From contig CAMKLG010000002.1 in NCBI GenBank assembly GCA_946413585.1, positions 1-64,000 on the forward strand: 64,000 nucleotides of DNA, in the 5' to 3' direction. Of this stretch, positions 3-62,702 are shown piece by piece (position 1 is the first letter of the stretch; each line of letters begins with the position of its first letter). The translations under genes were made by a program, and so were the position numbers. The DNA comes from an uncultured Bacteroidales bacterium (GTDB lineage Bacteria; Bacteroidota; Bacteroidia; Bacteroidales; WCHB1-69). The notes under the pieces were generated by a model that saw only the letters and a program-made list of their open reading frames with translations, ran no database searches and had not been told where the DNA came from.

Positions 3-395
3 CCCGTTACTTTCAGTAACGATGTGACGGCCGATTGTTACAGTCCCGGGCTGAGCAGCGCGGTCATCGCTTTGTATCACAACCCCGAGTTCGCCCAGCC
101 CTTCGTCCCCGACGACTCCGTGGGCGTCGACGAGTACTACCAGAACCGCGAGCGCGAGATCTACCTCTATCCCAACCCCACGGACGGACAGACCACCGTG
201 TGCGGCTACATGTACGGCTACCGCAGCATCGAGCTGCTCGACCTCCAGGGCCGCAAACTGGCCACCCTCTTAGATTCGCCCCACGGCACGGACGTACCCG
301 AAATCGACCTCTCGCCCTATCCCTCCGGCACATACCTCGTGAAGATCAACTTCGAACGAGGGGTGAGCGTGGTGAGGAAGGCAATTAAGAATTAA
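3..395 (+). CDS. C-terminal part of a T9SS-secreted protein (cut by window edge)
   Basis: The reading frame is open to the left edge, so the listed GTG start at 24 is not a real start. The last ~75 residues are a Por-type (type A) T9SS sorting domain: a LYPNPTDG turn, then a strand ending in LLDLQGRKL, then PSGTYLVKI and a short basic tail. This signal takes proteins through the outer membrane via the type IX system for surface attachment or release. What lies upstream cannot be seen, so the catalytic or adhesive role is unknown. The stop codon (TAA) already lies in the ATTAAGA heptamer repeat that fills the following gap. Confidence 0.85.
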   Translation, partial: PVTFSNDVTADCYSPGLSSAVIALYHNPEFAQPFVPDDSVGVDEYYQNREREIYLYPNPTDGQTTVCGYMYGYRSIELLDLQGRKLATLLDSPHGTDVPEIDLSPYPSGTYLVKINFERGVSVVRKAIKN

Positions 396-424
396 GAATG
401 CAGAATTAAGAATGATGAATGATG
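386..424. repeat. Heptamer repeat (ATTAAGA / ATGCAGA / ATGATGA)
   Basis: Units ATTAAGA, ATTAAGA, ATGCAGA, ATTAAGA, ATGATGA, ATGATGA run in strict 7-bp phase. The stop codon of the preceding T9SS gene is inside the first units. It belongs to the window-wide heptamer family. Confidence 0.85.
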
Positions 425-448
425 AGGCGTGAAATACGAGGAATGGAA

Positions 449-5295: not shown

Positions 5296-5395
5296 ATTAT
5301 TTAGATGTTTCGTTTTTTTTTGCGTGGGGTTTAGGGATTAGGGAGTAGGAAAGATGTTCTAAGTTCAAAGTCAGTGTGCGGCTAACTGCCAAGAG

Positions 5396-5863: not shown

Positions 5864-5871
5864 CGCCGTTT

Positions 5872-5945
5872 TGAAAGGGGTGCCGAAAGGCTGAGATCAG
5901 ACCCGTTGAACCTGATGCGGATAATGCCGCCGTAGGGAGATAAAC
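5872..5945 (+). promoter_or_regulatory. TPP riboswitch (THI element)
   Basis: The conserved blocks appear in order: GGGGTGCC, GGCTGAGATCAGACCC, GAACCTGATGCGGATAATG and the closing CGTAGGGAGAT. This is the thiamine pyrophosphate aptamer. It lies 68 bp upstream of the TonB-dependent receptor, so that gene should be shut off when TPP is plentiful. Downstream, TTATCCCTC could pair with the aptamer's 3' strand GGGAGATAA, leaving a small bulge, and may form the expression platform; that pairing is inference. Confidence 0.95.
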
Positions 5946-6012
5946 GCTTCTTCATTTCATTATCCCTCTTTCAGTGATGTTTTAATTTATTAATAACCAA
6001 ACTGTTAGAGTT

Positions 6013-8807: not shown

Positions 8808-8812
8808 ATTTG

Positions 8813-8955
8813 GTTTAGGGTTTAGGGTTTGTAGTTTAGGGTTTATAGTTTATAGTTTATAGTTTAGGGTTTATAGTTTAGGGTTTATAGTTTATAGTTT
8901 AGGGTTTAGGGAGTAGGGAGTAGTTCAAAGTTCAAAGTCCAAAGTTCAAAGTCCA
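8813..8955. repeat. Heptamer array (AGTTTAT/AGGGTTT, then GTTCAAA)
   Basis: About twenty units in 7-bp phase: GGGTTTA and TAGTTTA alternate, pass through GGGAGTA twice, then change to GTTCAAA/GTCCAAA units. It fills the whole gap between divergent genes up to the next promoter. Confidence 0.9.
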
Positions 8956-9002
8956 AAAACGGCGGCGAAAATACAAAAAATGTGAGGTGTCTTGAAAAAT
9001 AT

Positions 9003-9898: not shown

Positions 9899-10864
9899 AT
9901 GTCAACAAGCTATCGAGTCATACCCGTGTTTCTGCCGATGCTGGCTTGCCCGCACCGTTGCATCTATTGCAACCAGTTTGTGATTTCTGGACAGCAGAAA
10001 CTTCCTGATGTCCAGGATGTTGTTTCGCTGATTGAGCGCAATTTGGCCACGATGCCTGTCGGGGCTCATAAGCGCGTCGCTTTCTTCGGGGGGAGCTTTA
10101 CCTGTTTGCCCATGTCCATTCAGAACCGCTATCTTGACGTGGTTCAACCTTATCTCCAATCTTGTCGGATTGAGGGTGTCCAGCTTTCCACACGTCCCGA
10201 CTATATCGACGATGCAATCCTGCAAAATCTTAAGAACAAGGGGGTTACATTGATAGAGCTCGGTGCCCAATCGCTGGATGACGACATTCTGAAACGTTGC
10301 GGTCGTGGACACACCGTGGAGGATGTGCGCCGTGCGTCCGAGCGGATTCGCAACTACGATATGGATTTGGGCTTGCAGATGATGATTGGGTTGCCGGGCG
10401 ACACGCTCGAAACGGCCATGCGCACGGCGGAACAAATTGTGGCATTTGGGGCAAGCTGCACGCGCATCTACCCAACACTTGTGGTGGAAGGAACGGCACT
10501 GGCAGATGACTATCTATCAGGTGATTATGTGCCATTGACTTTGGAAGAGTCGGTGGAGTGGTGCAAAGAACTGTACTGTTATTATACCGCGCACAATGTG
10601 ACGATTTTACGGATGGGATTGCATCCGACACAGGACTTGCGCAGCGGCGAACATTTGTTGGCCGGACCGTTCCATATCTCCTTTAAGGAGTTGGTGCTCA
10701 CGGCATTGTGGCGCGATCGCATCGCCGCCCAAATCGCCGAAGAGGGTAGGGCAGATGTCACAGTGCTCGTGCCCCCCAGGGAGATGAACTATGCAGTGGG
10801 CTATGCCTCCGCCAACCGCAAAACGTTCCCCTCCATCAAATTCGAAATTTCTAATAGGCAATAG
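9899..10864 (+). CDS. Radical SAM protein, Elp3/COG1243-like
   Basis: A 321-residue protein with the [4Fe-4S]-binding CxxxCxxC motif at C17, C21, C24 (CPHRCIYC), the GGSFTCLP glycine motif, and later strands LSTRPDYI and IELGAQSLDD typical of Elp3-type and HemN-type radical SAM enzymes. It lacks the acetyltransferase domain of Elp3 proper, so the reaction is unknown. I start at ATG 9899; the TTG at 9881 lies in the terminator stem. The last residues (SNRQ) and TAG stop run into a GAATAGG heptamer array, so the natural C-terminus may have been altered by the repeat. Confidence 0.8.
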   Translation: MSTSYRVIPVFLPMLACPHRCIYCNQFVISGQQKLPDVQDVVSLIERNLATMPVGAHKRVAFFGGSFTCLPMSIQNRYLDVVQPYLQSCRIEGVQLSTRPDYIDDAILQNLKNKGVTLIELGAQSLDDDILKRCGRGHTVEDVRRASERIRNYDMDLGLQMMIGLPGDTLETAMRTAEQIVAFGASCTRIYPTLVVEGTALADDYLSGDYVPLTLEESVEWCKELYCYYTAHNVTILRMGLHPTQDLRSGEHLLAGPFHISFKELVLTALWRDRIAAQIAEEGRADVTVLVPPREMNYAVGYASANRKTFPSIKFEISNRQ

Positions 10865-11040
10865 GGAATAGGGAATAGGGAGTAGGGAGTAGTTTATAGT
10901 TCCAAGTTCCAAGTTCAAGGTTCAAGGTTCAAAGTTCAAGGTTCAAGGTTCAAAGTTCTATGTCTAAGTTCTATGTTTAAGTTGAAAAGCCAACCGCCAA
11001 CTGCTAACTGCTAACTACTAACTGCTAACTCTCAAGCCCT
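10857..11040. repeat. Long mixed heptamer array
   Basis: In 7-bp phase: CAATAGG, GAATAGG, GAATAGG, GAGTAGG, GAGTAGT, TTATAGT, then TCCAAGT/TCAAGGT/TCAAAGT units, then CTAACTG/CTAACTA units. The unit changes several times while the phase mostly holds. The remaining ~120 bp before pheT are AT-rich leader with no clear motif. Confidence 0.9.
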
Positions 11041-13645: not shown

Positions 13646-14227
13646 ATGCAGGTTTTTAATGGCATAGATCAGTTGCCGGTTTTGAAAAACCCGGTGGTCG
13701 CGGTTGGTGCATTCGACGGCGTTCATTTGGGTCATGCCCGCATTCTGCAATTTTTGACGCAACAGGCAGCGCAGGTGGACGGCACGAGTGTGGTGATAAC
13801 CTTTGATCCCCACCCGCGCACTGTTTTGCAACCCGATAGCGACTTCTTTACTATCAATATACTGCCAGAAAATCTGCGCCGGATTGAGCAGCAGGGCGTT
13901 GATGCCGTCATCGTCCTTCCGTTTACCGAAGCGTTTTCCCAAATGACCTACCAGCAGTTCGTGGAGGAAGTGCTGATTGGCAAGTTGCATGCCCACACTT
14001 TGGTGATGGGGCCTAACCACGCTTTTGGTCACCATCGCGAAGGTCACCACGACAATATCAAGAGGTTTTGTCAGGACCACGACCTGCAGGTGGTCGATAT
14101 TCCGGAAAAGATGTGGCATTCCGCGGGCGTGCATTCCGCGCTTATCCGAGAGCATATCCGCCAAAAGGACTGGGAAACCGTCAATGCGATGCTGGGGTAT
14201 GAGTATATAATGATGAATGATAAATGA
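13646..14227 (+). CDS. ribF: FMN adenylyltransferase domain of RibF, lacking the riboflavin kinase domain
   Basis: A 193-residue protein matching the N-terminal nucleotidyltransferase half of bifunctional RibF, with GAFDGVHLGHARIL (HxGH-type site), ITFDPHPRTVL and the closing IRQKDWETVNAMLGYEY. Ordinary RibF continues for ~120 residues with the flavokinase domain, usually straight after this MLGYxY segment. Here the frame runs into IMMNDK and a stop, all encoded by an ATGATGA heptamer repeat. It may be an FAD synthetase with riboflavin kinase encoded elsewhere, or a decayed gene. The domain assignment is firm; functional status is open. Confidence 0.82.
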   Translation: MQVFNGIDQLPVLKNPVVAVGAFDGVHLGHARILQFLTQQAAQVDGTSVVITFDPHPRTVLQPDSDFFTINILPENLRRIEQQGVDAVIVLPFTEAFSQMTYQQFVEEVLIGKLHAHTLVMGPNHAFGHHREGHHDNIKRFCQDHDLQVVDIPEKMWHSAGVHSALIREHIRQKDWETVNAMLGYEYIMMNDK

Positions 14228-14236
14228 TGAATGATG
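14205..14236. repeat. ATGATGA heptamer repeat at the ribF truncation
   Basis: ATGATGA, ATGATAA, ATGATGA, ATGATGA in 7-bp phase. The last codons and the TGA stop of the truncated ribF lie inside it. Confidence 0.8.
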
Positions 14237-14256
14237 AATATATTTTAAAACATCTT

Positions 14257-14343
14257 CCTTGAGCAGTCCCGAAGGGACAAAACGCACGAAGTGCAATTAA
14301 CCCCACACAAGCGAAGCGCAGTGTGGGGATGGTAGAATAAACG
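14257..14343. repeat. Dispersed CCTTGA-type palindromic element, copy 1
   Basis: TTCCTTGAGCAGTCCCGAAGGGACAAAA is followed by ACGCACGAAGTGC and CCCCACAC...GTGTGGGG inverted repeats. The first 28 bp closely match elements at ~35,961 and ~62,350. It sits between ribF and topA. Confidence 0.7.
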
Positions 14344-14365
14344 AAGAAATAAATGTAAATACTAT

Positions 14366-20019: not shown

Positions 20020-20079
20020 CTTTTAGCCAACAGCCAATAGCCAACAGCTAACAGCCAACAGCCAATAACAATACAAATA
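20020..20079. repeat. AGCCAAC/AGCCAAT heptamer array
   Basis: AGCCAAC, AGCCAAT, AGCCAAC, AGCTAAC, AGCCAAC, AGCCAAT in 7-bp phase, starting directly after the rpoD stop. Confidence 0.85.
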
Positions 20080-21507: not shown

Positions 21508-23025
21508 ATGTCTTCCCAGAATAAAATCACATTAGAGCAGAAGAACGTCCAACGGCAAGTCGGCTTGCCGTTGACGTTGCAATTGATGCGACTTGTGGAG
21601 ATGCCCTACGCCTCTTTGGAGCAGGAAATCCGCAATGCCGTTGATGAAAACCCCGCGTTGGAAATCTATGATGAAAATGCTGGGGAGACCGAAAGCCATG
21701 AGGAATTCGCATCTGAGGAGTATGATGCCAACGGAGACCCTTTGGAACTTTCGAATGAGCAACTTCCTGAAGATGAAATATTTAAGGAAGACTACTATCG
21801 TGATAATGACGACTACGATGATGGGTTCTCCGACTTGCAGTTGGAGAACTACATCTCGAAGTTGAACGCCCCTGACGAGCTCCCGCGCAATCCTAAATCG
21901 GATGTCTATTACGCTTCGTTGCATGAACAGTGGCAGTTGCAGTTGGATGCCATGGAAATGACAGATAAACAGTCACAAATCGCCACTTACCTCACGGGTA
22001 CGTTAGATGATTCAGGCTATTTACAGGCTGATTTACAGGCGATTGTGAACGAACTGCTCTACACCGAATATATTCAGACAAATGTGGAAGAGGTGGAGTA
22101 TGTACTGACCCATTTTGTGCAGGAGTTGGATCCGCCGGGTGTCGGTGCTCGTAACTTGCAAGAGTGTCTTTTGCTGCAGTTAGACCGTCTGCCGGAGACA
22201 ACGCCCGCGCACACGTATGCCCGCGTGATCATCACCCAATATTTTGATCTGCTGACGAAAAGACACTACGATAAGATATTGTCTGCGATGGAACTCGCAG
22301 ATGAGGAGTTGAAGGCTGCTTTGGAGGTCATCCAAAAACTGGATCCGCGTCCAGTCTCTCAGGATGCCCCATTATTGAAAAATGCCGAAATCATCATTCC
22401 TGATTTTACCATTACCAATCAGGATGGAAAATTGACGCTGACCTTGAACAACCAATATGTTCCTAAGGTGCGGATTAACAAGGAGTTCAGTAATGAATAT
22501 CGTTTCCTCTCTAAAGAAGAGTACGATCGTCGGAAGTCAGAGGCTGAGCGTTTCATGAAGAAATATGTCGATGATGGAATGCAGTTTATCAAAACTTTGT
22601 CGTTGCGCGAGATGTTGCTCTACAACACGATGTATGCCATCATGCAGCATCAACGTGACTATTTCATGTCGGGTGATGATAAGGATCTTAAACCAATGAT
22701 ACTCAAAACGATAGCGCAGGAGGTTGGCGCGGATATCTCGACCATCTCGCGCGTGTCGAACAGCAAGTATGTGCAGACAGACTTCGGCATTGTCCCGCTT
22801 AAGCATCTCTTCTCCGAGGCTGTAAACGACGACGATGTCTCTTCCAAAGAGATTAAGAAGATGTTGGGCGACCTCATTTCCGCCGAAGACAAGAGAAAAC
22901 CGCTGTCTGACGATAAGATTTGTTCCATGTTACAGGAGAAAGGTTATAACATCGCCCGCCGCACCGTTGCGAAGTACCGCGAACAGATGAGTATCCCTGT
23001 GGCAAGGTTGAGGAAGGAGTTGTAG
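21508..23025 (+). CDS. rpoN: RNA polymerase sigma-54 factor
   Basis: A 505-residue sigma-54 with the glutamine/leucine-rich region I (QVGLPLTLQLMRLVEM), an acidic linker (about 55-115), the core-binding domain, and the C-terminal DNA-binding domain ending in the RpoN box ARRTVAKYRE. It recognises -24/-12 promoters and needs AAA+ activators, none of which are in this window. It follows asnS by 8 bp. Its TAG stop is also the first TAG of a TAGGGTT heptamer array. Confidence 0.97.
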   Translation: MSSQNKITLEQKNVQRQVGLPLTLQLMRLVEMPYASLEQEIRNAVDENPALEIYDENAGETESHEEFASEEYDANGDPLELSNEQLPEDEIFKEDYYRDNDDYDDGFSDLQLENYISKLNAPDELPRNPKSDVYYASLHEQWQLQLDAMEMTDKQSQIATYLTGTLDDSGYLQADLQAIVNELLYTEYIQTNVEEVEYVLTHFVQELDPPGVGARNLQECLLLQLDRLPETTPAHTYARVIITQYFDLLTKRHYDKILSAMELADEELKAALEVIQKLDPRPVSQDAPLLKNAEIIIPDFTITNQDGKLTLTLNNQYVPKVRINKEFSNEYRFLSKEEYDRRKSEAERFMKKYVDDGMQFIKTLSLREMLLYNTMYAIMQHQRDYFMSGDDKDLKPMILKTIAQEVGADISTISRVSNSKYVQTDFGIVPLKHLFSEAVNDDDVSSKEIKKMLGDLISAEDKRKPLSDDKICSMLQEKGYNIARRTVAKYREQMSIPVARLRKEL

Positions 23026-23068
23026 GGTTTAGGGTTGAGAGTTTAGGGTTTAGAGTTTAGGGTTGAGT
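23023..23068. repeat. TAGGGTT heptamer array at the rpoN stop
   Basis: TAGGGTT, TAGGGTT, GAGAGTT, TAGGGTT, TAGAGTT, TAGGGTT, GAGTGG. The first unit's TAG is the rpoN stop codon. Confidence 0.85.
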
Positions 23069-23203
23069 GGTTATTATATTATACTTCTTTTGGAGCTTAG
23101 AGAGGATGGCATATTATAGATGGTGGCGGGAAGGCTAGAAAAAAACAACTTTTGTTTGTTGATCGGTTTTTATTCATTTGGAAATACATAAATCAATAAT
23201 AAT

Positions 23204-24772
23204 ATGAAAAAAATATTCGTTGCGTTGTTAATCAACATTTTATGGGTGGCAGTGCCGGTTGTCGTAATGGCGCAGAATGCCGCCGAATTGACCAATTTGG
23301 TCGTTTTTGTCCGTTTTGCGGATGATGCGGAAATCAATCGCCCTTTAGCACCCATAGACTCGATGTTTAATGGGAGAACGCCCGGTTACCTCAGTGTTTA
23401 TAATTTCTATGATGTGATGTCATACGGTAAAATACACTACAACACCGTTTACACGAATAATGTCCAAAACGGGGTGATAATATCTTACCAAGATCCCTAT
23501 CCACGAGGCTATTTCGAACCGTATAGTCCTTCAAACCCAATGGGTTACACGGAGCCGAATCCTTTCATGGGTGTTTCCATGCGAGAGGCAGAGCTGTTAG
23601 GCAGAATTGTGAGCTACGTGGATTCCGTGGGCTTGGTGGACGCCACGGTCGATTTGGACGGCAACGATGATGGTATGGTTGACAATGTCAGTTTCGTTGT
23701 GAAAGGCGGCACAGGCGCATGGGCCTCCATCCTTTGGCCTCACATGGAGTTTTTCCCGTACGATTCGCTTGATTATGAACCTCGTATCAATGGTTTGAAA
23801 CTTAATACGTTCAATTTTGAGTTCGAAGGCTCTGTTTCTTATTTCACACCTCATGTGTTCCGCCATGAAATGGGACATTCTTTGAGCCTTCCTGATTTGT
23901 ATCATTATATTAATTACCAAGATGTTACGCCTGCTGGAGATTGGGATATGATGTGCTCGAATACAGGAAACAACCATACAGCGGCCATCTTTAAAAACAA
24001 GATTTTGCATGTTTCTGACGACCCGATTGAGATCACGGAGAGCGGTGACTACACGTTGTTGAGTGTTGGCTCCAGCCCGTCGCGCAATTGCTACTACATC
24101 AAGTCCCATATTGACCCAACCCAGTGGTATGTGCTCGAATATCGGAGCCGGAACGACCTTTTTGATGAGTCTATTCCGGGGTCGGGGTTGATTGTTGCCC
24201 GTTGGAACGACACGGTTCCTCTCAATTACGAGGGCTTATACACTAATGGCTTCTTTGATTTCTACAATAGAGCCCATCAGTACTGGATTTTCCGTCCGGG
24301 AAGCAGCAGTGATATTGAAAATGGTTTGATAGACAGAGCTCATTTCAGTCAGCTCGTGGGTCGTACTTCTTTCGGTCCGACCACAGACCCGCATCCGTAT
24401 TTGACAGACGGAACACCCGAGACCTGTTTTAAGATCACGGGTATCTACGACCACGGCGACAGCCTCACTTTCCACGTCCACTTCTTTGATGCCGGAATTG
24501 AGGATAATCAACTGGCAGAGAGTATCATCGTCTATCCCAATCCCGCCACCGAGGTCGTTAATGTGGAATGTAGAATGCAGAATGAAGAATGGGCGGTGAC
24601 CAATATGGAGGTGTACGATGTTTATGGTAAGGTTATCCGCACTGCGGAGACGTTGCGCGCCACGTCTCCGCAAACCGCGCAAATCAACGTTTCCGGTCTC
24701 GCCGCAGGCATGTATTTCGTGCGTGTGACGACGGATAAAGGTGTGCTGACGAAGAGGTTTGTGAAGAGATAG
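23204..24772 (+). CDS. M6-family metalloprotease with T9SS sorting domain, copy 1
   Basis: A 522-residue secreted protease with signal peptide (cleaved near VMAQ), an M6 (immune inhibitor A-like) catalytic domain with HEMGH at H221, E222, H225 followed by LPDLYHY supplying the third ligand, and GDWDMM as the Met-turn-like segment. A C-terminal T9SS domain follows (VYPNPATEVV ... AAGMYFVRVT). Inside this domain lie an in-frame heptamer block (ECRMQNEEW) and a palindrome encoding TLRATSP, both extra to the usual sorting domain. It is the first of a tandem pair; a 269-bp stretch is identical to copy 2. Confidence 0.88.
   Translation: MKKIFVALLINILWVAVPVVVMAQNAAELTNLVVFVRFADDAEINRPLAPIDSMFNGRTPGYLSVYNFYDVMSYGKIHYNTVYTNNVQNGVIISYQDPYPRGYFEPYSPSNPMGYTEPNPFMGVSMREAELLGRIVSYVDSVGLVDATVDLDGNDDGMVDNVSFVVKGGTGAWASILWPHMEFFPYDSLDYEPRINGLKLNTFNFEFEGSVSYFTPHVFRHEMGHSLSLPDLYHYINYQDVTPAGDWDMMCSNTGNNHTAAIFKNKILHVSDDPIEITESGDYTLLSVGSSPSRNCYYIKSHIDPTQWYVLEYRSRNDLFDESIPGSGLIVARWNDTVPLNYEGLYTNGFFDFYNRAHQYWIFRPGSSSDIENGLIDRAHFSQLVGRTSFGPTTDPHPYLTDGTPETCFKITGIYDHGDSLTFHVHFFDAGIEDNQLAESIIVYPNPATEVVNVECRMQNEEWAVTNMEVYDVYGKVIRTAETLRATSPQTAQINVSGLAAGMYFVRVTTDKGVLTKRFVKR
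24644..24671. repeat. Palindromic element inside the protease gene
   Basis: GCGGAGACGT and ACGTCTCCGC are perfect 10-bp arms around TGCGCGCC. The GAGACGT/ACGTCTC core recurs at 26,541-26,568 in the paralogue and in the 26-bp palindrome at 47,675. Confidence 0.75.
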
Positions 24773-25000
24773 GGTTTAGAGTTTAGGGTTTAGGGTTTAG
24801 AGTTTAGAGTTTAGGGTTTAGGGTTTAGAGTTTAAGGTTTAGGGTTTAGAGTTTAAGGTTTTGGGTTTAGAGTTTAAGGTTTTGGGTTTAAGGTTTTGGG
24901 TTTAAGGTTTTGGGTTTAAGGTTTTGGGTTTAAGGTTTTGGGTTTAGGGTTTAAGGTTTAGGGTTTATGGTTTAGGGTTTATGGTTTTTGGGGAGGAGGA
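24772..25000. repeat. Long AGGGTTT-type heptamer array between protease copies
   Basis: About 30 units of AGGGTTT, AGAGTTT, AAGGTTT and TTGGGTT in 7-bp phase fill the 325-bp gap between the two M6 genes. No gene is present. The array starts at the TAG stop of copy 1. Its dominant unit equals the plant-type telomere heptamer by sequence, but the context is fully bacterial. Confidence 0.95.
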
Positions 25001-25097
25001 ACTATTGGTATGTAAAAGTGGGCGAAGGGAACCTCTGCGGAAATAATAGCACCCGTTAATCAATTTTGTCATTTTGATGATAAATAATCAATAAAAT

Positions 25098-26669
25098 ATG
25101 AAAAAAGCACTTGTTATATTGTTAGTCAATGTGTTGTGTGTGTTCGCGCCCATTGTGGTGATGGCGCAGTCCGCCACTGAACTGACCAATTTGGTCCTTT
25201 TCGTCCGTTTCGCGGATGATGCGGAAATCGACCATTCGTTTGCGTCAATTGATACGATGTTTAATGGTAAAACGCCTGGTTACCTCAGTGTCTATAATTT
25301 TTACGATGTAATGACATACGGGAGAATACATTACAACACCGTTTACACGAATAATGTCCAAAACGGGGTGATAATATCTTACCAAGATCCCTATCCACGA
25401 GGCTATTTCGAACCGTATAGTCCTTCAAACCCAATGGGTTACACGGAGCCGAATCCTTTCATGGGTGTTTCCATGCGAGAGGCAGAGCTGTTAGGCAGAA
25501 TTGTGAGCTACGTGGATTCCGTGGGCTTGGTGGACGCCACGGTCGATTTGGACGGCAACGATGATGGTATGGTTGACAATGTCAGTTTCGTTGTGAAAGG
25601 AGGCACAGGCGCATGGGCCTCCATCCTTTGGCCTCACATGGAGTATTTTCCGTATGACTCTCTTGATTATGAACCGCGTATCAATGGACAAAAAATATAT
25701 ACGTTCAATTTCGAGTTTGAGGGTGCGGATTCTACCTTGTTCAACGCCCTTGTTTTCCGTCATGAAATGGGACATTCGTTGGATCTTCCGGACCTTTACC
25801 ATTATATGTATTACGACGAGGTCACTCCTGCTGGCGCTTGGGACATGATGTGTTACGGCAGTTCCCTCAACCAAACAGCGGCCATTTACAGGAATAAGAT
25901 CCTGCACGTGTCGGACGACCCTGTTGAAATTACCGAGGACGGCGATTACACGTTGCTGAGCGTCGGCTCTAGTCCGTCGCAAAACTGCTACTACATCAAG
26001 TCGCACATAGACCCTACGCAGTGGTATGTGCTGGAATACCGCAACCAGAACGACCTTTTCGAAGAGGGTATTCCTGGTTCTGGTTTGTTGGTGGCGCGTT
26101 GGAACGACACGGTCACGTTGGACTACAAGGGTTTGTTTGCCAACTCCTTCTTCGATTTCTACAATCAGGCGCACCAGTATTGGATTTTCCGTCCGGGCAG
26201 CACTATCGATACCGTTAATGGAGACATTGATAATGCGCATTTCAGTCAGCTCGTGGGGCGTACTTCATTCGGTCCGTCCACCAACCCGCATCCCTATCTC
26301 ACCGATGGCACCCCTGAATCCAGCTTCGAAATTACGGACATATACGACCACGGAGATCACCTCACCTTCCACGTCCACTTCTTTGATGCCGGAATTGAGG
26401 ATAATCAACTGGCAGAAAGTTTCAGCGTCTATCCCAACCCCGCTACAGAGGTCATTAATGTTGAATGTAGAATGAAGAATGAAGAATGGGCGGTGACCAA
26501 TATGGAGTTGTACGATGTTTATGGTAAGGTTATCCGCACTGCAGAGACGTTGCGCGCCACGTCTCCGCAAACCGCACAAATCAACGTTTCCGGGCTTGCC
26601 GCAGGCATGTATTTCGTGCGTGTAACGACGGATCAAGGTGTGGTGACGAAGAGGTTTGTGAAGAGATAG
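25098..26669 (+). CDS. M6-family metalloprotease with T9SS sorting domain, copy 2
   Basis: A 523-residue paralogue of the upstream gene with the same order: signal peptide, M6 domain with HEMGH at H222, LPDLYHY and GAWDMMCYG, then a T9SS sorting domain. Most of the two genes differ at many synonymous and some non-synonymous sites, but 25,332-25,600 is identical to 23,438-23,706. The same heptamer and palindrome insertions are present in the sorting domain, so they predate the duplication. It probably degrades host or dietary protein at the cell surface, together with copy 1. Confidence 0.88.
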   Translation: MKKALVILLVNVLCVFAPIVVMAQSATELTNLVLFVRFADDAEIDHSFASIDTMFNGKTPGYLSVYNFYDVMTYGRIHYNTVYTNNVQNGVIISYQDPYPRGYFEPYSPSNPMGYTEPNPFMGVSMREAELLGRIVSYVDSVGLVDATVDLDGNDDGMVDNVSFVVKGGTGAWASILWPHMEYFPYDSLDYEPRINGQKIYTFNFEFEGADSTLFNALVFRHEMGHSLDLPDLYHYMYYDEVTPAGAWDMMCYGSSLNQTAAIYRNKILHVSDDPVEITEDGDYTLLSVGSSPSQNCYYIKSHIDPTQWYVLEYRNQNDLFEEGIPGSGLLVARWNDTVTLDYKGLFANSFFDFYNQAHQYWIFRPGSTIDTVNGDIDNAHFSQLVGRTSFGPSTNPHPYLTDGTPESSFEITDIYDHGDHLTFHVHFFDAGIEDNQLAESFSVYPNPATEVINVECRMKNEEWAVTNMELYDVYGKVIRTAETLRATSPQTAQINVSGLAAGMYFVRVTTDQGVVTKRFVKR

Positions 26670-26826
26670 GGAATAGGGAGTAGGGTTTACAGTTTACGGT
26701 TTACAGTTTATGTCTAAGTCTAAGTTTAAGTTTAAGTTTTAAGTTTAAGTTAAGTCTAGGTCAACTGCTAACTGCTAACTACTAACTGCTAACTGCCAAT
26801 AGCTAATAGCCAATAGTCAAAGTTAA
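26667..26826. repeat. Mixed heptamer array
   Basis: It starts at the TAG stop of copy 2 with AGGGAAT/AGGGAGT, passes through GTTTACA, CTAAGTT-like and CTAACTG units, and ends with CAATAGC units just before the yitT ATG. Confidence 0.85.
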
Positions 26827-34219: not shown

Positions 34220-34300
34220 CTTCATCGCTTTTCATCGCTTTTCATCGCTTTTCATCGCTTTTCATCGCCCCTTCATCGTCCTTTCATCGCTTTTCATCGC
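34220..34300. repeat. TTCATCGCTT decamer tandem repeat
   Basis: Four near-identical TTCATCGCTT units from 34,220, then degenerate TTCATCGCCC, TTCATCGTCC and TTCATCGC units. On the minus strand it encodes the tail and stop region of the HsdR_N gene (MKSDERTMKGR). Its period is 10, unlike the heptamers. Confidence 0.85.
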
Positions 34301-34714
34301 TTTCTTATCCTCCAATTCTCTTATCCTCTTATCCTCAAAGTCGATCTCAAACACCCTCTGTTCCACCCCGTTCGTGACGCACAGCAGCGGTGCCTTCAGG
34401 ATGCTGTTGTAGCGGCCGGCCTGCTCCACGACCTTTTGCGTGAGCTTTATGTGCGGGGCCTTGCACTCGACCACCATATACGGGTTCAGATCGTCGTCGA
34501 AGACCACAAGGTCGTAACGCTGGGTCATCCCGTTGACGGTCACAGCGTGCTCCACCGAGAGGTGCGAGAGTGGCAATCCCTTGACGTTTAGCAGGTAGAG
34601 GATGAAGACCTGCCGCACGCGCTCTTCGGGGGTCATCACGACCCACTTCTGCCGCACGGGGTCGAAAACCTCCTGCTGCGAACCGTTTTCCCGTATTTTC
34701 AATGTAAATGCCAT
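34262..34714 (-). CDS. HsdR N-terminal-like (PD-(D/E)xK) protein
   Basis: A 150-residue stand-alone domain similar to the N-terminus of type I restriction R subunits. The nuclease-like core reads YDLVVFDDDLNPYMVVECKAP, giving D...ExK, preceded by VSVEHAVTVN-type strand and helix. There is no helicase part and no hsdM/hsdS nearby, so it is a solo family member common in Bacteroidales rather than a restriction system. Its last ~12 residues are encoded by a TTCATCGCTT decamer repeat, so the C-terminus varies with repeat number. Confidence 0.75.
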   Translation of the reverse strand: MAFTLKIRENGSQQEVFDPVRQKWVVMTPEERVRQVFILYLLNVKGLPLSHLSVEHAVTVNGMTQRYDLVVFDDDLNPYMVVECKAPHIKLTQKVVEQAGRYNSILKAPLLCVTNGVEQRVFEIDFEDKRIRELEDKKAMKSDERTMKGR

Positions 34715-39300: not shown

Positions 39301-39312
39301 CTACTAACTTAA

Positions 39313-39366
39313 ACGGGGAACCCTTCCGAGTTCCCCGTAATTATGCATTATGCATTATGAATTAAG
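39313..39366. repeat. Composite palindrome plus heptamer element, copy A
   Basis: ACGGGGAAC-CCTTCCGA-GTTCCCCGT forms a 9-bp stem and is followed by ATTATGC, ATTATGC, ATTATGA, ATTAAGA heptamers. It can terminate both convergent neighbours. The last four codons and the stop of the LytTR gene are encoded by the heptamers. Related copies lie at 42,763 and 45,250. Confidence 0.8.
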
Positions 39367-40416
39367 AATAAAGTACCCTCCTCTCTTTTTGCTGCCGGTG
39401 TATTCGATAAGCCCTTTCTTCTTGAGTTCAAAGAGGCAGCGATCCATGGTGGTCTGCGAATAGGAGGTGTGGGAAATGAGTTCCGTGGAGCGGCAACCGG
39501 GATGCTCTTTGATGTAGTTGAGTACAGCATCGAGCTTCTCTTTCGGCGGAACAGACGGGCCTTTTTTGCCTTTTTCTTCTTCGCTTTCCGGCTGTAACAC
39601 GTTCTTTTCTTCTATGTCAGCGTGCAGATATTCATCGATGGCAGCTGCAATCTGAGGGGCTCTTTTGGTGTCCAATGGGAATGAGAGGGGAACTTCTGTT
39701 CGAGACAGGTTCTTCAGGGTCACAGCCTTTCCGTCACATGAGGCAATGTACTGGTAAGGGACGATAACGGAGGCGGATATGCGGATAAACTCTTTGTCTC
39801 CAAGATGTTGCTCCAAGTATTTGATAGTACAATAGCGGGTGTATTTGATGCCATCAATCGTGTGGATTTCTGTTTCATTCCCATTTTTCTTACAGTAAAG
39901 GACCTTGTCTATGGGGATGTGCTGGCAGTTGTTTTTGTCATCGCAAACGTCAAGCATTCTGGCAAATTGATAGACAACCTTGCTCTCCGTTTCCAAAGAT
40001 TGTTGCAGTTGTTTTCTTTCTCTCAACACGTAAGCAAAGAGGTTGAAAGCGAGGTTGCGGAAAACAATGAGGGACAAAACCTCTGAAAAGAAATAAAAGG
40101 GACCAACTTTTTGGATGACTTGGGCACAACAATATGCGATAATTGTATGGCCAAGAGCCAGTTCAATGCTTCCTGCAACCAAACAAGCAATGACAACAGA
40201 AGACCAATACAGTGAAGTGTGGCTCCGATACAATTTTGGATAGAAAAGATAATAGTTGGCGTACAATGTGGCCAATAGCAATAATCCTGAGATATATTCC
40301 TTGGCCTGACTATCTAAAGGTGGACGAAGGAATGCGTTTCGGGGGAAGAACCACAGCAGTGCGGCGCAAAACAGGATATTCAGTAAAATGGTGACAATTG
40401 TTTTTTGCTGTTTCAT
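39355..40416 (-). CDS. Membrane-bound LytTR-type regulator with winged-helix C-terminus
   Basis: 353 residues from ATG 40416. Four membrane helices (about 8-140) are followed by a LytTR-like DNA-binding domain (about 180-265; IPIDKVLYCKKNGNETEIHTI, FIRISASVIVPYQYIAS), an acidic linker, and a C-terminal winged helix (LNYIKEHPGCRSTELISHTSYS, LKKKGLIEYTG). Two DNA-binding modules on one membrane anchor is unusual. A minus-strand TATCTTTGC lies at 40,436-40,444 and a 19-bp inverted repeat just upstream, suggesting autoregulation. The ORF-track start at 40530 would cover those sites. No histidine kinase or receiver is adjacent. Confidence 0.75.
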   Translation of the reverse strand: MKQQKTIVTILLNILFCAALLWFFPRNAFLRPPLDSQAKEYISGLLLLATLYANYYLFYPKLYRSHTSLYWSSVVIACLVAGSIELALGHTIIAYCCAQVIQKVGPFYFFSEVLSLIVFRNLAFNLFAYVLRERKQLQQSLETESKVVYQFARMLDVCDDKNNCQHIPIDKVLYCKKNGNETEIHTIDGIKYTRYCTIKYLEQHLGDKEFIRISASVIVPYQYIASCDGKAVTLKNLSRTEVPLSFPLDTKRAPQIAAAIDEYLHADIEEKNVLQPESEEEKGKKGPSVPPKEKLDAVLNYIKEHPGCRSTELISHTSYSQTTMDRCLFELKKKGLIEYTGSKKRGGYFILNS

Positions 40417-42185: not shown

Positions 42186-42262
42186 CCGCGTATCTTGCTT
42201 GATTATATCTCCGCGTATCTTGCTTGATTATATCTCCGCGTATCTCGCGTATCTACACGTAT
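42186..42262. repeat. 25-bp tandem repeat CCGCGTATCTTGCTTGATTATATCT
   Basis: Two exact 25-bp units (42,186-42,210 and 42,211-42,235), then degenerate CCGCGTATCTCGCGTATCTACACGTATCT. Similar CCGCGTATCTCGCG units recur at 42,656-42,715 on the other side of the small lipoprotein gene. Confidence 0.8.
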
Positions 42263-42655: not shown

Positions 42656-42833
42656 CCGCGTATCTCGCGTGGTTTTATCCCCGCGTATCTCGCGTATCTG
42701 CACGTATTGATGCTGCACCTTTCCAATCCCCGTAAACTACTAACTGCTAACTGCTAACTAAAACGGGAGCCCTTCCGAGCCCCCGTAATTATGCATTATG
42801 CATTATGCATTATGAATTATGAATTACTCCCTC
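42656..42833. repeat. CCGCGTATCT units, CTAACTG heptamers and composite palindrome copy B
   Basis: In order: CCGCGTATCTCGCG units; CTAACTG/CTAACTA heptamers (42,737-42,760); ACGGGAGC...GCCCCCGT palindrome (42,763-42,785); ATTATGC x3, ATTATGA x2 heptamers. The stop of the next minus-strand gene (TAA) is the first codon of the final heptamers. Confidence 0.8.
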
Positions 42834-45209: not shown

Positions 45210-45309
45210 CTATATTCATCATTCATCATTCTGCATTCATAATTAAAAAACGGGGAACCCTTCCGAGTCCCCCGTAATTATGCATTATGAATTATGAATT
45301 ATGAATTAA
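45210..45309. repeat. ATTCATC heptamers and composite palindrome copy C
   Basis: ATTCATC, ATTCATC, ATTCTGC, ATTCATA heptamers, then ACGGGGAAC...GTCCCCCGT palindrome (45,250-45,275), then ATTATGC and ATTATGA x3. The remaining gap 44,979-45,209 is AT-rich and shows no gene; it should contain the promoter of the minus-strand beta-helix gene. Confidence 0.8.
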
Positions 45310-49242: not shown

Positions 49243-52200
49243 ATGAAAAAGATTATTACAACTGTGTTGATGCTTCTGACGCTCATGGCACCTCGGATCG
49301 GATACACACAGCAGTATTTGACAGTCCACGACGGGACAGACACCAGCGAGTATATTCCTGTTTATGGCTTTTTCGTGGATGATTATCTGAAAATGGAGAT
49401 GGTGTATCCGGCGCAGGAACTTTCCGTCATGAACGGAGCCAACCTCACCGGTATGAGTTTCTATGCTGAAGAATCCAGTTCAGATTGGGGCAATCCCACT
49501 TTCAGGGTTTTCCTCGCCGAGGTTTCCTCGCCGACAGTAAGTGCTTTTGTCGGTTCCGGAACTGTCGTTTTCGAGGGCACTTTGGAAATCAGCGGTGGGG
49601 TCATGACCGTTCTTTTTGACCAGCCCTTCACCTATCATGGGGGCAATCTGCTTGTCGGCATCTATGATATTCTCCCCGGAGACGATTTTTCCGACTCCCA
49701 TTGGTATGGGGAGGCGGTGAACGGTGCTGCTATATTGGGCTTGGCCAATAATGAAGAAGCGGACTTCCCAATGGATTTCCTGCCGAAGACCACCTTCCAG
49801 TACATACCTGCCGGTGTGTCGTCTTGTCTTCGTCCCACGAACCTCATGGCGAGCAATGTTTCCGCTCATTCCGTCACATTGGGCTGGACGGAAAATGGCT
49901 CAGCCTCGTCCTGGCAGATTTGTCTTAACGAGGATGAGGACAACCTCATTACGGTTACCAGCAACCCCTATACGTTGACGGGTCTCACTGCTGGCACGGA
50001 CTACAGTGTCAAAGTGCGTTCCAGATGTAATAACGGCGCCACTACCAGCACATGGTCGAACGCGATTAGCTTTTTGGCAACCGACGACGTGGTCATCGGT
50101 TACGGCGCCTCCTCAAGCAACAATCTTCCCAGCACTTCGTTCTACAAATATTCGTTGACCCAGCAGATTTACACAGCTGGAGAAATCGGGATGGCCGGTA
50201 CCATCAACAGTGTCGCCTTCTACAATCAAGGCTCGGAAAAGACCCGCAATTACGATATGTATATTGTCCATACTCCTAAGACCTCGTTTGCGTCCAACAA
50301 TGATTGGATACCGGTTACGGCCAGCGACAGGGTCTTTAGCGGGGAAGTGACGATGGCCGCCAATGCATGGACGGTCATCCAGATTGACGGTTTCGATTAT
50401 AATGGGACGAGCAACCTTGCCCTCGTCATGGATGACAATACCAATTCTTGGTCCGAAGGTATGTCTTGTCGCGTTTTCAGTGCCGCCAGCCAGGCTATAT
50501 TAGTTTACGCCGATGACACGAATTATGATCCTTGTGGTTCGTTGGGCTATTCCGGCACCGTTGCGAATATGAAAAACCAGATCGTGCTGGGCATTACGCC
50601 TGCCGGCATGGTCGCTTGCGCGAGACCGGCCACCTTTTCGGTGAACAATATCACCGCCCATTCGGCTGTGTTGTCATGGAGCGGCGGCAGCGGCACGTAC
50701 AATGTGGAATATAAAAAGGATGCCGACGAGGTTTGGTCCGTGTATGCGAATGGCGTTACCAGCACCAGCCTCAACATGAACAACCTTTCCCAGGCGACCC
50801 AATATGCGGTCCGGATTCAGTCGGTCTGCCCAGACAGCGTGAGTGGCTGGAAAAGCACCTTCTTCACCACACAGGTCGCCTGCACTGATCATATCTACGT
50901 GACCGAGAATGGTACGGGCGACGGGTCCAGTTGGGCGTTGGCGACGAGCGATCTGCAATCGGCGTTGAGTACCGCGCTGGACATCCGTAACGCCTACGGA
51001 TTAACCTTGGATGTTTGGGTGGCCAACGGTACCTACTACGGCGACATGATCGGTATCAATGCTTTCACCATGGTGGAGGGCGTGAACTTGTATGGCGGTT
51101 TTGCCGGCAACGAACCGGCCAGCTACAACCTGTTGTTGCGGAACTTCAATACCCACGCGACGATTCTGGACGGTGCTTCTTCGAGACGGGTGCTCTACCA
51201 GCCAACCGATTTCAACACCCTGACGACTTGGGACGGCTTCACGATCCAGCATGGTCAGATGGCCACTGACGGTGCCGGGGCTTTCTTGCGTGAAGGAAGC
51301 CGTTTGTCAAACTGCAAGATTTTAGACAATGTTTCATTGAGCGGCGATGGCGGCGGTGTGTATTGTGACGACCATGCCGTTTTGGAAAACTGTGATTTTG
51401 AGAGGAATACGGCATACTATTCCGGCGGCGGTGTCTATGCTTACCGCTCCACAGTCCGCAATTGTCGCATGGCGAACAACACGGCCAACAGAGGAGGTGG
51501 GGTGTATCTCTCCTACCAGTCCAATCTCGTCTCTTCTCGGATTAGTCATAACCAAGCTTATGAAGGTGGTGGAATTTACATGCTTTCACTTTCGCAGGTC
51601 CGCAACTGTTTGGTCGATAACAACACGGCGGATGCGTCGTCCTATAGTCTTGGTGGCGGCGGAATTTGTTGTGCCAGTACGGGCGCAGTCGTCAATACGA
51701 CCGTCGTGCGCAATGCCTCCACCGATGGCGGCGCCGGTGTTTCCGGGCAAGGCGGTGCTTCGCTGACCAACTGTATAGTGTGGGGTAACGAGCAGGACGG
51801 GAACCCCTCCAATGTCGTCGGCAACCTTGCCGTCTCGTTCTCTGCCGTGGAAGGCGGTTGCCCGGGCGATAGCATCATTGTACTCAACGATGTCAACCCG
51901 CCTCTGTTCGTGAACAGCTCTGCAACGGCAGGCGCGTCCGACAATTCTTCCGGTGCAGACTGGCATTTCCAGAACGGATCCCCTTGTGCCAATGCCGGCA
52001 ATAATGCTGCCGTGACGGACAGCCTCGACCTCGACGGCACGGCGCGTGTCAAACGCGACACGGTGGATTTGGGATGTTATGAGTCGAATTTCTACAGCGT
52101 GCCGGTCAGTTATTGCGTCACCGTTTATCATGAATTCTCTGACACGGCGTGTGTCAACTATACTTGGAATGACCGAACTTACTACTGGAGTGGTGACTAT

Positions 52201-55200
52201 ACCCAAACAATGGAACTTCCCAACGGCTGTGACTCCGTGGTGACATTGCATCTCACCATCAACCGCTCCGTTTCCACTTACGAATCTCTTTCTATTTGTG
52301 AAAGCGAACTGCCCTACACTTATTTGGATACGGTCTTCGATGTCGGCACCCCGCAGAATTCGTATTTCACTTTTCGGTTGATGGCGGATAACGGTTGCGA
52401 TTCTGTCATTCACCTCCACCTCACGGTACAGCCTTCCATCTTGGGGGCGTTTGGGGCCATGACTCCGACGAACAACTATACGGTCACCAACCAGGCGGTG
52501 CACTTCACCTGGGATGCGGTGGAGAATGCCACCGGTTACGCGCTCTACGTGTGGCCTGTGGGCGACCCCCAGCCGCAGCAGCCTGCCGTTTCCCAAGACT
52601 ACTGGACACAATGTGTGGTGACCAATCTGCAGAACCGCCGGGACTACCAATGGTTCCTGAAAGCCTATAGCGCTTGCGACACCACCGTGAGTGCGGTTCG
52701 CCAGTTCACGCTGAATGTGGCACCGGTGTTGACGATCAACAGTGGCGCTATCATGGATTTCGGCGAGATTCCGTTGGACAGTACCCGCAGCCGCTATTTC
52801 CAGGTGACGGGTACGGCCTTGACCAGTGCCATTTCCTACCAACTCTCAGGAACGGATGCCTCCTCCTTCTCCCTTAGTCCGTCCAGTTCGTGGAACAGCA
52901 TGACGGGCGGCGGAATGCAGATTTCCTTCCATCCCACGGTGCCTCAAAACGAATATGTCGCGCAGATTACCATACAGAGTGACACATTAGTGAGAACCTT
53001 TACGGTGAAAGGCTGTCTTTCCGGTTTCCTGACCTTTACCACCACCGTGGATGCCGATGTGTATGCCACCGACAGCGAGATACCCATCCATGGTCAGGTG
53101 ACGAACCTGCTCAACGATCCAGTTGCCGGACTGGATGTGGAAGTGTATGTGAAGGTGTTCGACCTTGTCCGCACGATTCCGGCCACCACAGATGCTAACG
53201 GGCTGTTCGAGGTCTCGTTCGTCCCGCAGCAGTCCGAGTCGGGCTACTACACGGTGGGTGCACGTCGGTTAGGTGCCGACGGCATGGCGGTGCACGACGC
53301 TTTCAACATCCCGGGCATGATGCTGCTCTCTTCCGACTGGATTCTCTGGAAGCCGAACACCGCGCAAGCGGATACGGGTACGATTGCCGTGCGCAACCGC
53401 AGCCAGGTCCCCCTCACGAACATCCAGGTCACCCCGGCATCGCTGCCCAATGGATGCACGGTGCAGTTCGAACCTCTGAATCTTGCCGGCTTGGCTACAG
53501 GCGAATTGCAGTATGTCGTCAGCGGCTCGGTGGCTTCCACGGGCGTGAACTACGAGGAGGTGCGCCTCAATGCTTTCAGTGACGAAGGAGCAGCCATGAA
53601 CTTCAGCGCATGGTACTACTGTATGCAACAACGTGCCGACTTGGATGTGATGCCCCTGTCGCTCACCAACACGATGAACCGTGGAAAGAGCAAAGTGGTG
53701 GATTTCAAGATTTTCAACAATGGCAATGGTCCGACAGGCAACATTTACGTCACGCTGCCTGACGTGCCGTGGATGTCGGTGGTCGGGAGTGACACGCTGC
53801 CCTCCCTGGGCGTGCATGATTCCGCATACGTCTCCATCCGTCTTTCCGCAGACAGCACCACCGCCCTCATCCGTTACACGGGCAACATCGCCATCAACTG
53901 TGAGCGCGGCGAGGGGGTGAGCATCCCCTACAGTATCACCGCCATTTCCGACTCCACGGGTGCGCTAATGGTGGACGTCACGGACGATTATACGTACAAC
54001 ACCAACAGCGGTAACGGCCCGCACCTCGCTGGTGCCGACGTGATCGTGAAAGGATACTATTCGTTGGAAACCGTTGCCACAGGGGTGACCGATTCCAACG
54101 GAGTTTTTGTGGCGGACAATCTGCCGGAAGGCTGGTACAAGCTCATCATCCGCGCCGACCGTCACGATGAGTACCAGAACAACCTCTATATCACGGCCGG
54201 AGAAACCAACCATCAGGACATTTTCATCCAGTTCCAGGCCATCACCTACTCTTGGGAGGTGGTGCCCACTGAAATCGGGGACGAATACACCTACGAGTTG
54301 GTGGTGAATTACGAAACGCATGTGCCGACCCCGGTGATTGTTTTGGAAATGCCCAGTGAACTTCCCGCTCTGCAGGAGGGCGAGAGTTACACCTTTGACT
54401 ATGTCTTGACCAACCACGGTCTGATTGCCGCTTTTGACGTGCAACTCTTCGCTCCGCAAAGCTCCCTCTATACGTTTACGCCGCTGTATGACCAGATGGA
54501 CAGCCTTCCCGCACAAACCTCGGTGTCAATTCCTTGTGTGATGAGTCGCCCCGTGCAAACCCGTTCAGCCAATAACGCTGCAGGTCTGAGATACGGCTCC
54601 GATGGGGATTGCCCGCATCTTATCAGGACCTCGGTAGTCGGTTATAAATTATGCGGCGGAGATAGATACCCGATTTGGGCGTACAAGATGGTGACCGACG
54701 GAACCTATGAGCCGTGTCCTACGTGGACGTCGATGCCGATGTACTACGGCGGAATTGCAGGAGGCACTTCCGTGTTGGCAGGAAATTACAGCTCCGAGCC
54801 ACTCACAACCCCGGTGGCAATATGTGAGTGCGAGGACGAAGTGGTGAGTTACGATACCACCCTCACCAATAAGTTGGACACCCTCTTCTTCGTCTTTATT
54901 AAGAATTTAAGAAACTGTGTCACTGGCGAACTCTATCAGATTCGTGATACGGTGCCGATTCTTGATGAAGATTGTGAGGTTACGGTTACCGTCAATCCTT
55001 TTAATAGACCCCTGTCTGGAGTGGGACGAATCGGCGTGGCCGCCGACGGCGCGTCTAAGATGTATATTTATGTCAAAAGCAATTGCCAATTGCTGTCATC
55101 ACAGCTTTTGTGGTCGTTGACTTATAATCATACGACGGATTCGACTATTGTGGGCTCCATCTCTCCCGAGATCGTTCAAGTGAATGACACCATGTTGATG

Positions 55201-62538: not shown

Positions 62539-62572
62539 AAGACAGACGGTTTTCGCAACCGTCTGTCTTTTT
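62539..62572 (+). terminator. Intrinsic terminator of tRNA-Val
   Basis: AAGACAGACGGTT pairs with AACCGTCTGTCTT over 13 bp with a 5-nt loop, followed by a T-run. Confidence 0.92.
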
Positions 62573-62702
62573 TTTACTTTTTACTTTTTACTTTTTACTT
62601 TTCACTTTTCACTGCTCACAACTAATCACTAATCACTAATCACTGATCACTAATCACTAATCACTAATCACAAGCTTCAATAACCCATAACCCATAACCA
62701 TT
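62571..62702. repeat. ACTTTTT and CACTAAT heptamer arrays
   Basis: ACTTTTT x3, ACTTTTC x2, then AATCACT units (seven or more), then CATAACC units, all in 7-bp phase. No gene in this gap apart from the tRNA and the glgB leader. Confidence 0.88.

Follow-up and report, generated by a model that had tools for sequence, protein, structure and literature searches.

Ordered and polar arrays of clade-specific heptamer words in the intergenic DNA of a rumen Bacteroidales genome

The intergenic gaps of an uncultured rumen Bacteroidales bacterium carry numerous tandem arrays with a period of seven bases. These arrays probably (roughly 60% in our judgement) represent one family of dispersed polar composite repeats, spread by copying between loci and remodelled in steps of 7 nt. 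At dozens of loci the same words appear in one order and one direction, and they were therefore probably copied around the genome rather than made anew in each gap.

Sequence source and the seven-base period

The genome is a draft metagenome-assembled genome (MAG) of 2.98 Mb in 125 contigs with 5.6% contamination, and its named near relatives are nearly all uncultured Bacteroidales from ruminants. As a draft that is 88% complete, it may give wrong copy numbers for long arrays. The window, the whole stretch of DNA described here, is the first 64 kb of a 110-kb contig. Period statistics were obtained from 849 kb of the 2.98 Mb and pattern counts from the whole genome, and genes were called with a simple codon-usage script, by which 85% of the 849 kb is coding. 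Arrays in the 849 kb are segments scoring at least 13 at lag 7, with a third-order Markov model as the null, while in the window sequence self-matches were counted at every lag (runs of at least 12 matches) and a TRF list was compiled.

The window contains 19 such runs at lag 7, 18 at lag 14 and 12 at lag 21, versus 0-2 at lags other than multiples of 7, which bears out the dominant period reported in a preliminary description of this DNA. The peak at 7 is also present in the genome as sampled, with 104 lag-7 arrays in 849 kb versus 0-8 at lags 1-6 and 8-13 under the same scoring (7 segments at lag 6 and 2 at lag 8) and approximately none under the null. In 462 kb of the genome there were 50 at lag 7 versus at most 8 at other lags and 0.2 in order-3 Markov shuffles. 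That every array in the window is heptameric proved incorrect, given stretches of period 6 (26685-26755), 10 (34221-34303) and 25 (42186-42245); the second of these, an intergenic decamer array of eight copies of TTCATCGCTT, is a clear exception to period 7. The arrays had also been assigned to intergenic gaps, and this is true of most (92/104, in gaps that make up 15% of the 849 kb), but those at 24560 and 26457 in the window lie within coding sequence. Among gaps of at least 60 bp, 67 of 379 in the 849 kb hold a heptamer array. The phase, said mostly to hold as the unit changes, is kept at 8812-8957 and over 220 bp at 24770-24991, but at the junction from GGTTTAG to TAGGGAA only three of nine cases are in phase.

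Period 7 is nothing special to this genome; the special feature is the density of arrays in its genus, at about 4-21 per 100 kb in the sampled sets versus 0.6 in 16 other Bacteroidales families. Loci from 47 other Bacteroidota show a weaker peak at 7 (24 segments in 817 kb), three plasmids of heterocystous cyanobacteria (about 215 kb) have 20 lag-7 segments versus 0-3 at other lags up to 13, and 100 kb of Escherichia coli K-12 scanned in the same way contained none. Heptamer arrays are found in complete (circular) records, which answers in part the check on long-read assemblies set by the preliminary description, and since the peak recurs in congeners, other Bacteroidota and the cyanobacterial plasmids, it is no assembly artefact of one MAG. 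When the arrays were masked, an excess of two-copy tandem repeats was seen at most lags between 7 and 15, and at lag 7 it was only modestly larger; arrays of at least three copies are nearly all of period 7, so the specificity for 7 acts mainly at expansion or survival.

The arrays of the window are collected in Table 1. A near-identical hairpin, AACGGGGAACCCTTCCGAGTYCCCCG then TAATTATGCATTATG, stands in three of its gaps (39312-39338, 42766-42788 and 45249-45275), and together with word G this terminator-like hairpin looks like a second composite. An Rfam search of the window returned nothing beyond tRNAs and one TPP riboswitch, which is located at 5866-5955 upstream of a TonB-dependent receptor gene. 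The interval 49243-60333 encodes a protein of 3696 amino acids with fibronectin type III and PGAP1-like domains.

Table 1. Heptamer arrays and duplication copies in the 64-kb window; words are lettered as in the following section.
Feature	Position	Strand	Remark
Word G array (AATTAAG/GAATGAT)	383..425	+	runs out of gene end
Short composite B-C-D	5327..5375	+	
Composite B-C-D (GTTTAGGG > AGTAGGG > AGTTCAA)	8812..8957	+	in phase across word changes
Composite I-C-D-(GTTCTATGTTTAAG block)-F, E on other strand	10853..11030	+	gap between radical SAM gene and pheT
Word G array (AATGATG)	14209..14239	+	end of gene preceding topA
Word F array (AGCCAAC)	20025..20065	+	gap between rpoD and asnS-like gene
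Word B array	23023..23064	+	on rpoN stop codon
Duplication copy 1: array B, gene 23204-24772, start of next array	23025..24858	+	
Word B array (GGTTTAG/AA/AT), ~31 heptads	24770..24991	+	starts on TAG stop codon of upstream gene
Duplication copy 2: tail of 24770 array, gene 25098-26669, start of 26666 composite	24926..26750	+	
Composite C-B, period-6 stretch, E (minus strand), F	26666..26820	+	upstream of YitT-family gene
Word G array	39340..39373	+	after hairpin AACGGGGAACCCTTCCGAGTTCCCCG (39312-39338)
Word E array, hairpin, word G array	42735..42826		convergent gap
Word G arrays flanking near-identical hairpin	45212..45308		on both sides
TTTTTAC heptamers	62571..62613		after tRNA-Val; unit outside nine-word set
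Word H (GTGATTA) array	62621..62671	-	
Module A, AATGGTTATGGGTTATGGGTTATTGAAG	62675..62702	-	beside TATCTTTGC, a promoter-like site

Shared words in a fixed order

The arrays had been described as unified by their period and not by their sequence, which is wrong, as nine heptamer words account for 98 of the 104 arrays. The words were picked by eye from roughly half the data (the first 462 kb), where they cover 59/60 arrays, and in a further 387 kb that was unused in their choice they cover 39/44 (89%); random heptamers are covered at 2-4%. Coverage falls to 64-73% of arrays in congeners and 21% in other Bacteroidota, so the vocabulary belongs to the clade, and it is strongest in this genome. 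Moreover, 73% of the arrays in the first 462 kb have an exact unit, up to rotation and strand, that is common to another locus, versus 0-13% for random intergenic heptamers.

Seven of the words follow one order and orientation, namely A (GGTTATT) > B (GGTTTAG) > I (GGCAATA) > C (TAGGGAA) > D (AGTTCAA) > E (AGTTAGC) > F (AGCCAAY), and the other two are G (AATTAAG/GAATGAT/AATGATG) and H (GTGATTA). When two different words at most 45 bp apart on the same strand were taken as an adjacent pair, 62 of the 68 pairs in this genome obeyed the order, versus a mean of 44 and a maximum of 51 in 200 runs with pair directions randomised and the order re-optimised. The order derived from this genome also fits 18 of 21 pairs in relatives, some of which may share ancestry with one another. 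A further 30 adjacent pairs lie on opposite strands, and in most of these F or G is paired with itself.

The leading block, module A, has fixed ends and the form AATGG(TTATNGG)nTTATTGAAG. It occurs in 35 copies genome-wide at up to two mismatches, with none for the reversed control. At up to one mismatch, 16 of the 24 genomes examined in the genus, this one included, have 1-25 copies each, and 16 other families have zero; an order-wide scan matched 2 of 295 genomes, this one and one other. Each of 30 copies inspected lies directly beside a start codon, stop codon or promoter-like site, and word B, C or another often comes next. As module A adjoins starts, stops and promoters alike, the block order is no by-product of gene orientation. 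The composite at 10870-11030 in the window is collinear over 160 bp, with one gap, with another at contig position C2:72546-72705, the two loci being unrelated. An identical 24-mer within both composites is found at those two sites only and in no congener.

Arrays beside start codons mostly have the G-rich strand outward and the C-rich strand coding (14/18 in 462 kb), and those at stops are mixed. A C-rich coding strand at the start side could perhaps keep 5' UTRs poor in G, with Shine-Dalgarno pairing little used. No general strand rule emerged: the orientation of arrays does not follow transcription (17/41), nor does it clearly follow GC skew (35/56, p 0.08).

A tandem gene duplication and the same gaps in other species

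The gene at 23204-24772, which carries a T9SS sorting domain, and the following gene belong to a tandem duplication whose copies are 85% identical over 1787 aligned bases. Homology in copy 1 begins within the array at 23023 and ends within the one at 24770; in copy 2 it begins within the latter and ends within the composite at 26666. The interval between rpoN and yitT holds a single such gene in six relatives and none in others. Most simply, the duplication would have fused a downstream and an upstream array into the one at 24770, and this would account for the length of that array. An inner 14-bp dimer, TTTAAGGTTTTGGG, is amplified in place within it. Each duplicated gene also has a heptad array (AATGTAGAATG...) in its coding sequence just before the sorting domain (24560-24591 and 26457-26488).

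The gene order topA-speB-DUF3078-rpoD-asnS-rpoN is largely kept across the genus, so that its gaps can be compared between species. In the gap between rpoD and asnS this genome has AGCCAAC, its nearest relative (96% RpoN identity) and others have AGTTAGC, further relatives have GGTTATT or GGTTATG (eight) or AGTGAAT (one), and in outgroups the gap is 9-39 bases long and free of arrays. Depending on the species, the gap before topA contains word G, word B, module A or REP-like repeats, or lacks all four. REP-like dispersed repeats (CCCCACACAAGCGAAGCGCAGTGTGGGG; CCTTGAGCAGTCCCGAAGGGAC) are located at 14240-14365 in the window and before topA in relatives, where they alternate with heptad arrays between species. 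Orthologous arrays were compared pairwise across six gaps, and 75 of the 142 pairs differed at two or more of the seven positions. The change between species is one of replacement, or of differential loss from longer composites, rather than slow drift. In the rpoD-asnS and topA gaps, where whole gaps differ between species, neither a target duplication nor an insertion with a clean empty site was seen.

Origin of the arrays and relation to known repeats

In the reading that we favor, each copy would be a string of heptamer blocks drawn from the clade-specific words, nearly always in the order A-B-I-C-D-E-F, with any block liable to be absent at a given locus. Copying from locus to locus would have carried such strings into many gaps, most likely through recombination or template switching between word-bearing gaps with the words as landing sites. 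In place, the higher-order repeats of 14 and 21 bp inside arrays suggest that blocks grow and shrink by 7, 14 or 21 bases through slipped replication or unequal exchange, the general process for bacterial heptanucleotides. Copies would persist where gaps tolerate them, with growth halted by start codons, stop codons and promoters, and the arrays may also act as substrates for rearrangement, as in the tandem duplication that ends in arrays. A broader proposal, in which a single process with heptamer words as landing sites would both spread these ordered composites and remodel a large part of the genus's intergenic DNA, making them a new kind of dispersed repeat in bacteria, is offered tentatively.

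The preliminary description took the shared period to suggest a common copying mechanism and considered independent slippage inadequate. The period is no evidence for common copying because heptamers dominate the long simple sequence repeats (SSRs) of most bacteria; common copying is indicated instead by the shared words, their order and polarity, and the 160-bp copy. Ordinary independent SSRs, each arising in its own gap by slippage linked to a 7-nt polymerase contact and sharing words through base composition and TAG or TAA stop-codon seeds, would fit the many arrays that begin on a stop codon and a period that, in the accounts seen of long bacterial SSRs, is general, as it also occurs in unrelated Bacteroidota and cyanobacterial plasmids (PMC4679880, PMC4692102). 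Such an origin is nevertheless rather unlikely for the arrays as a whole, as slippage from local seeds does not account for word sharing that is clade-specific and far over chance, a fixed order and polarity, a module with fixed ends or a long collinear copy. Independent slippage may still hold for the step of growth in place.

It is distinctly unlikely that the composite or module A is a mobile element proper, moved in trans by a transposase in the manner of a MITE or REP sequence. Clade-restricted, dispersed copies with a fixed 5' end and the presence of genes for an IS200-type transposase would agree with this, but the module lacks terminal inverted repeats (its ends AATGG and TTGAAG are not inverted copies) and no target duplication was seen in the gaps compared. 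A hairpin or structured RNA was rejected, as the two composites tested fold worse than shuffles (z +2.1 and +1.5). A phage or other mobile carrier was likewise dismissed, as viral contigs contain no exact copies of module A and there was no phage match. Y1_Tnp domains occur nearly everywhere, in similar counts in array-rich genomes and array-poor families, and thus fail as a tracker. Regulatory or structural sites under selection, whose heptads would be recognised by a DNA- or RNA-binding protein as has been suggested for the TAACTGA repeats of Beggiatoaceae, would account for the recurrence of gap positions, for arrays abutting starts, stops and promoters, and for the outward G-rich strand at starts. 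This is very improbable given that one gap carries different words or none across sister species and that orientation tracks neither transcription nor, clearly, skew. The initial proposal, that the arrays are written by a polymerase or reverse transcriptase moving in 7-nt steps, is scarcely credible. A sharp period at expansion is what such an enzyme would produce, but RVT_1 has no match in this genome (88% complete) or in most array-rich congeners, Y-family polymerase (IMS) is nearly universal and equally common in array-poor families, so that neither tracks the arrays, and copying in steps would not yield one word order at separate loci.

Dispersed polar composites, the reading preferred here, overlap with several described systems. 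Heptanucleotides are the most abundant long SSRs in most genomes, and a 7-nt DNA polymerase contact and slippage have already been proposed for them (Mrazek 2007, as relayed in PMC4679880 and PMC4692102). The arrays resemble these LSSR in that period 7 dominates, they are intergenic and slippage is proposed for their growth, and they share with the LSSR/STRR class 7-bp tandem units that are over-represented relative to other lengths and mainly intergenic. They differ from LSSR, which these accounts report as a period statistic (PMC4679880, PMC4692102), in their clade-wide vocabulary, fixed block order and polarity, of which the accounts make no mention. The preliminary description knew of no counterpart in Bacteroidota; heptamer arrays have in fact been described in five Bacteroidetes, Gramella and Aequorivita among them (PMC4679880). 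The TAACTGA repeats of Beggiatoaceae, Cyanobacteria and these five Bacteroidetes are, like the present arrays, intergenic heptamers beside start or stop codons; close relatives without them have shorter gaps, and Gramella and Aequorivita have other heptamers in the same gaps (PMC4679880). The unit of that family is exactly TAACTGA, with related heptamers rarely repeated (PMC4679880), whereas word E here is of the TAACTGC/TAACTAC type, TAACTGC differing from it by one base, and is one composite block among eight other words, which places the arrays outside this single-heptamer family. About seven CTAACTG heptamers, the same heptamer as word E, are located upstream of a replication initiation gene on Pseudomonas koreensis plasmid p3 (14985-15051), where they are possibly iterons.

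Like REP/BIME and MITE, the composites occur as many short, clade-limited intergenic copies per genome, but they are built of heptads and lack the hairpin palindrome and the association with Y1 (RAYT-type) transposase of the former as well as the inverted ends of the latter, which are missing from module A. STRR sequences of heterocystous cyanobacteria comprise several intergenic heptamer families per genome, and in this they are similar, although they come from a different phylum; we know of no fixed multi-word composite described for them. The cyanobacterial plasmids use AGGGAAC, AGGGAAT and AGGGAGT, which is word C here, in records that were found via word C, and either convergence or transfer could be responsible. 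Searches of open-access papers for Prevotella heptamers and Nostoc STRR turned up no description of ordered heptamer composites, and descriptions elsewhere may have been missed. Heptamers have been recognised as dominant among bacterial SSRs since 2007, and no cause has been put to the test so far as the accounts in PMC4679880 and PMC4692102 go. Dense arrays that share words in a set order and differ between sister species separate the birth and spread of words from growth in sevens in place, each of which can be tested through strain comparison, and heptamer arrays are now seen where the copies of a tandem gene duplication begin and end.
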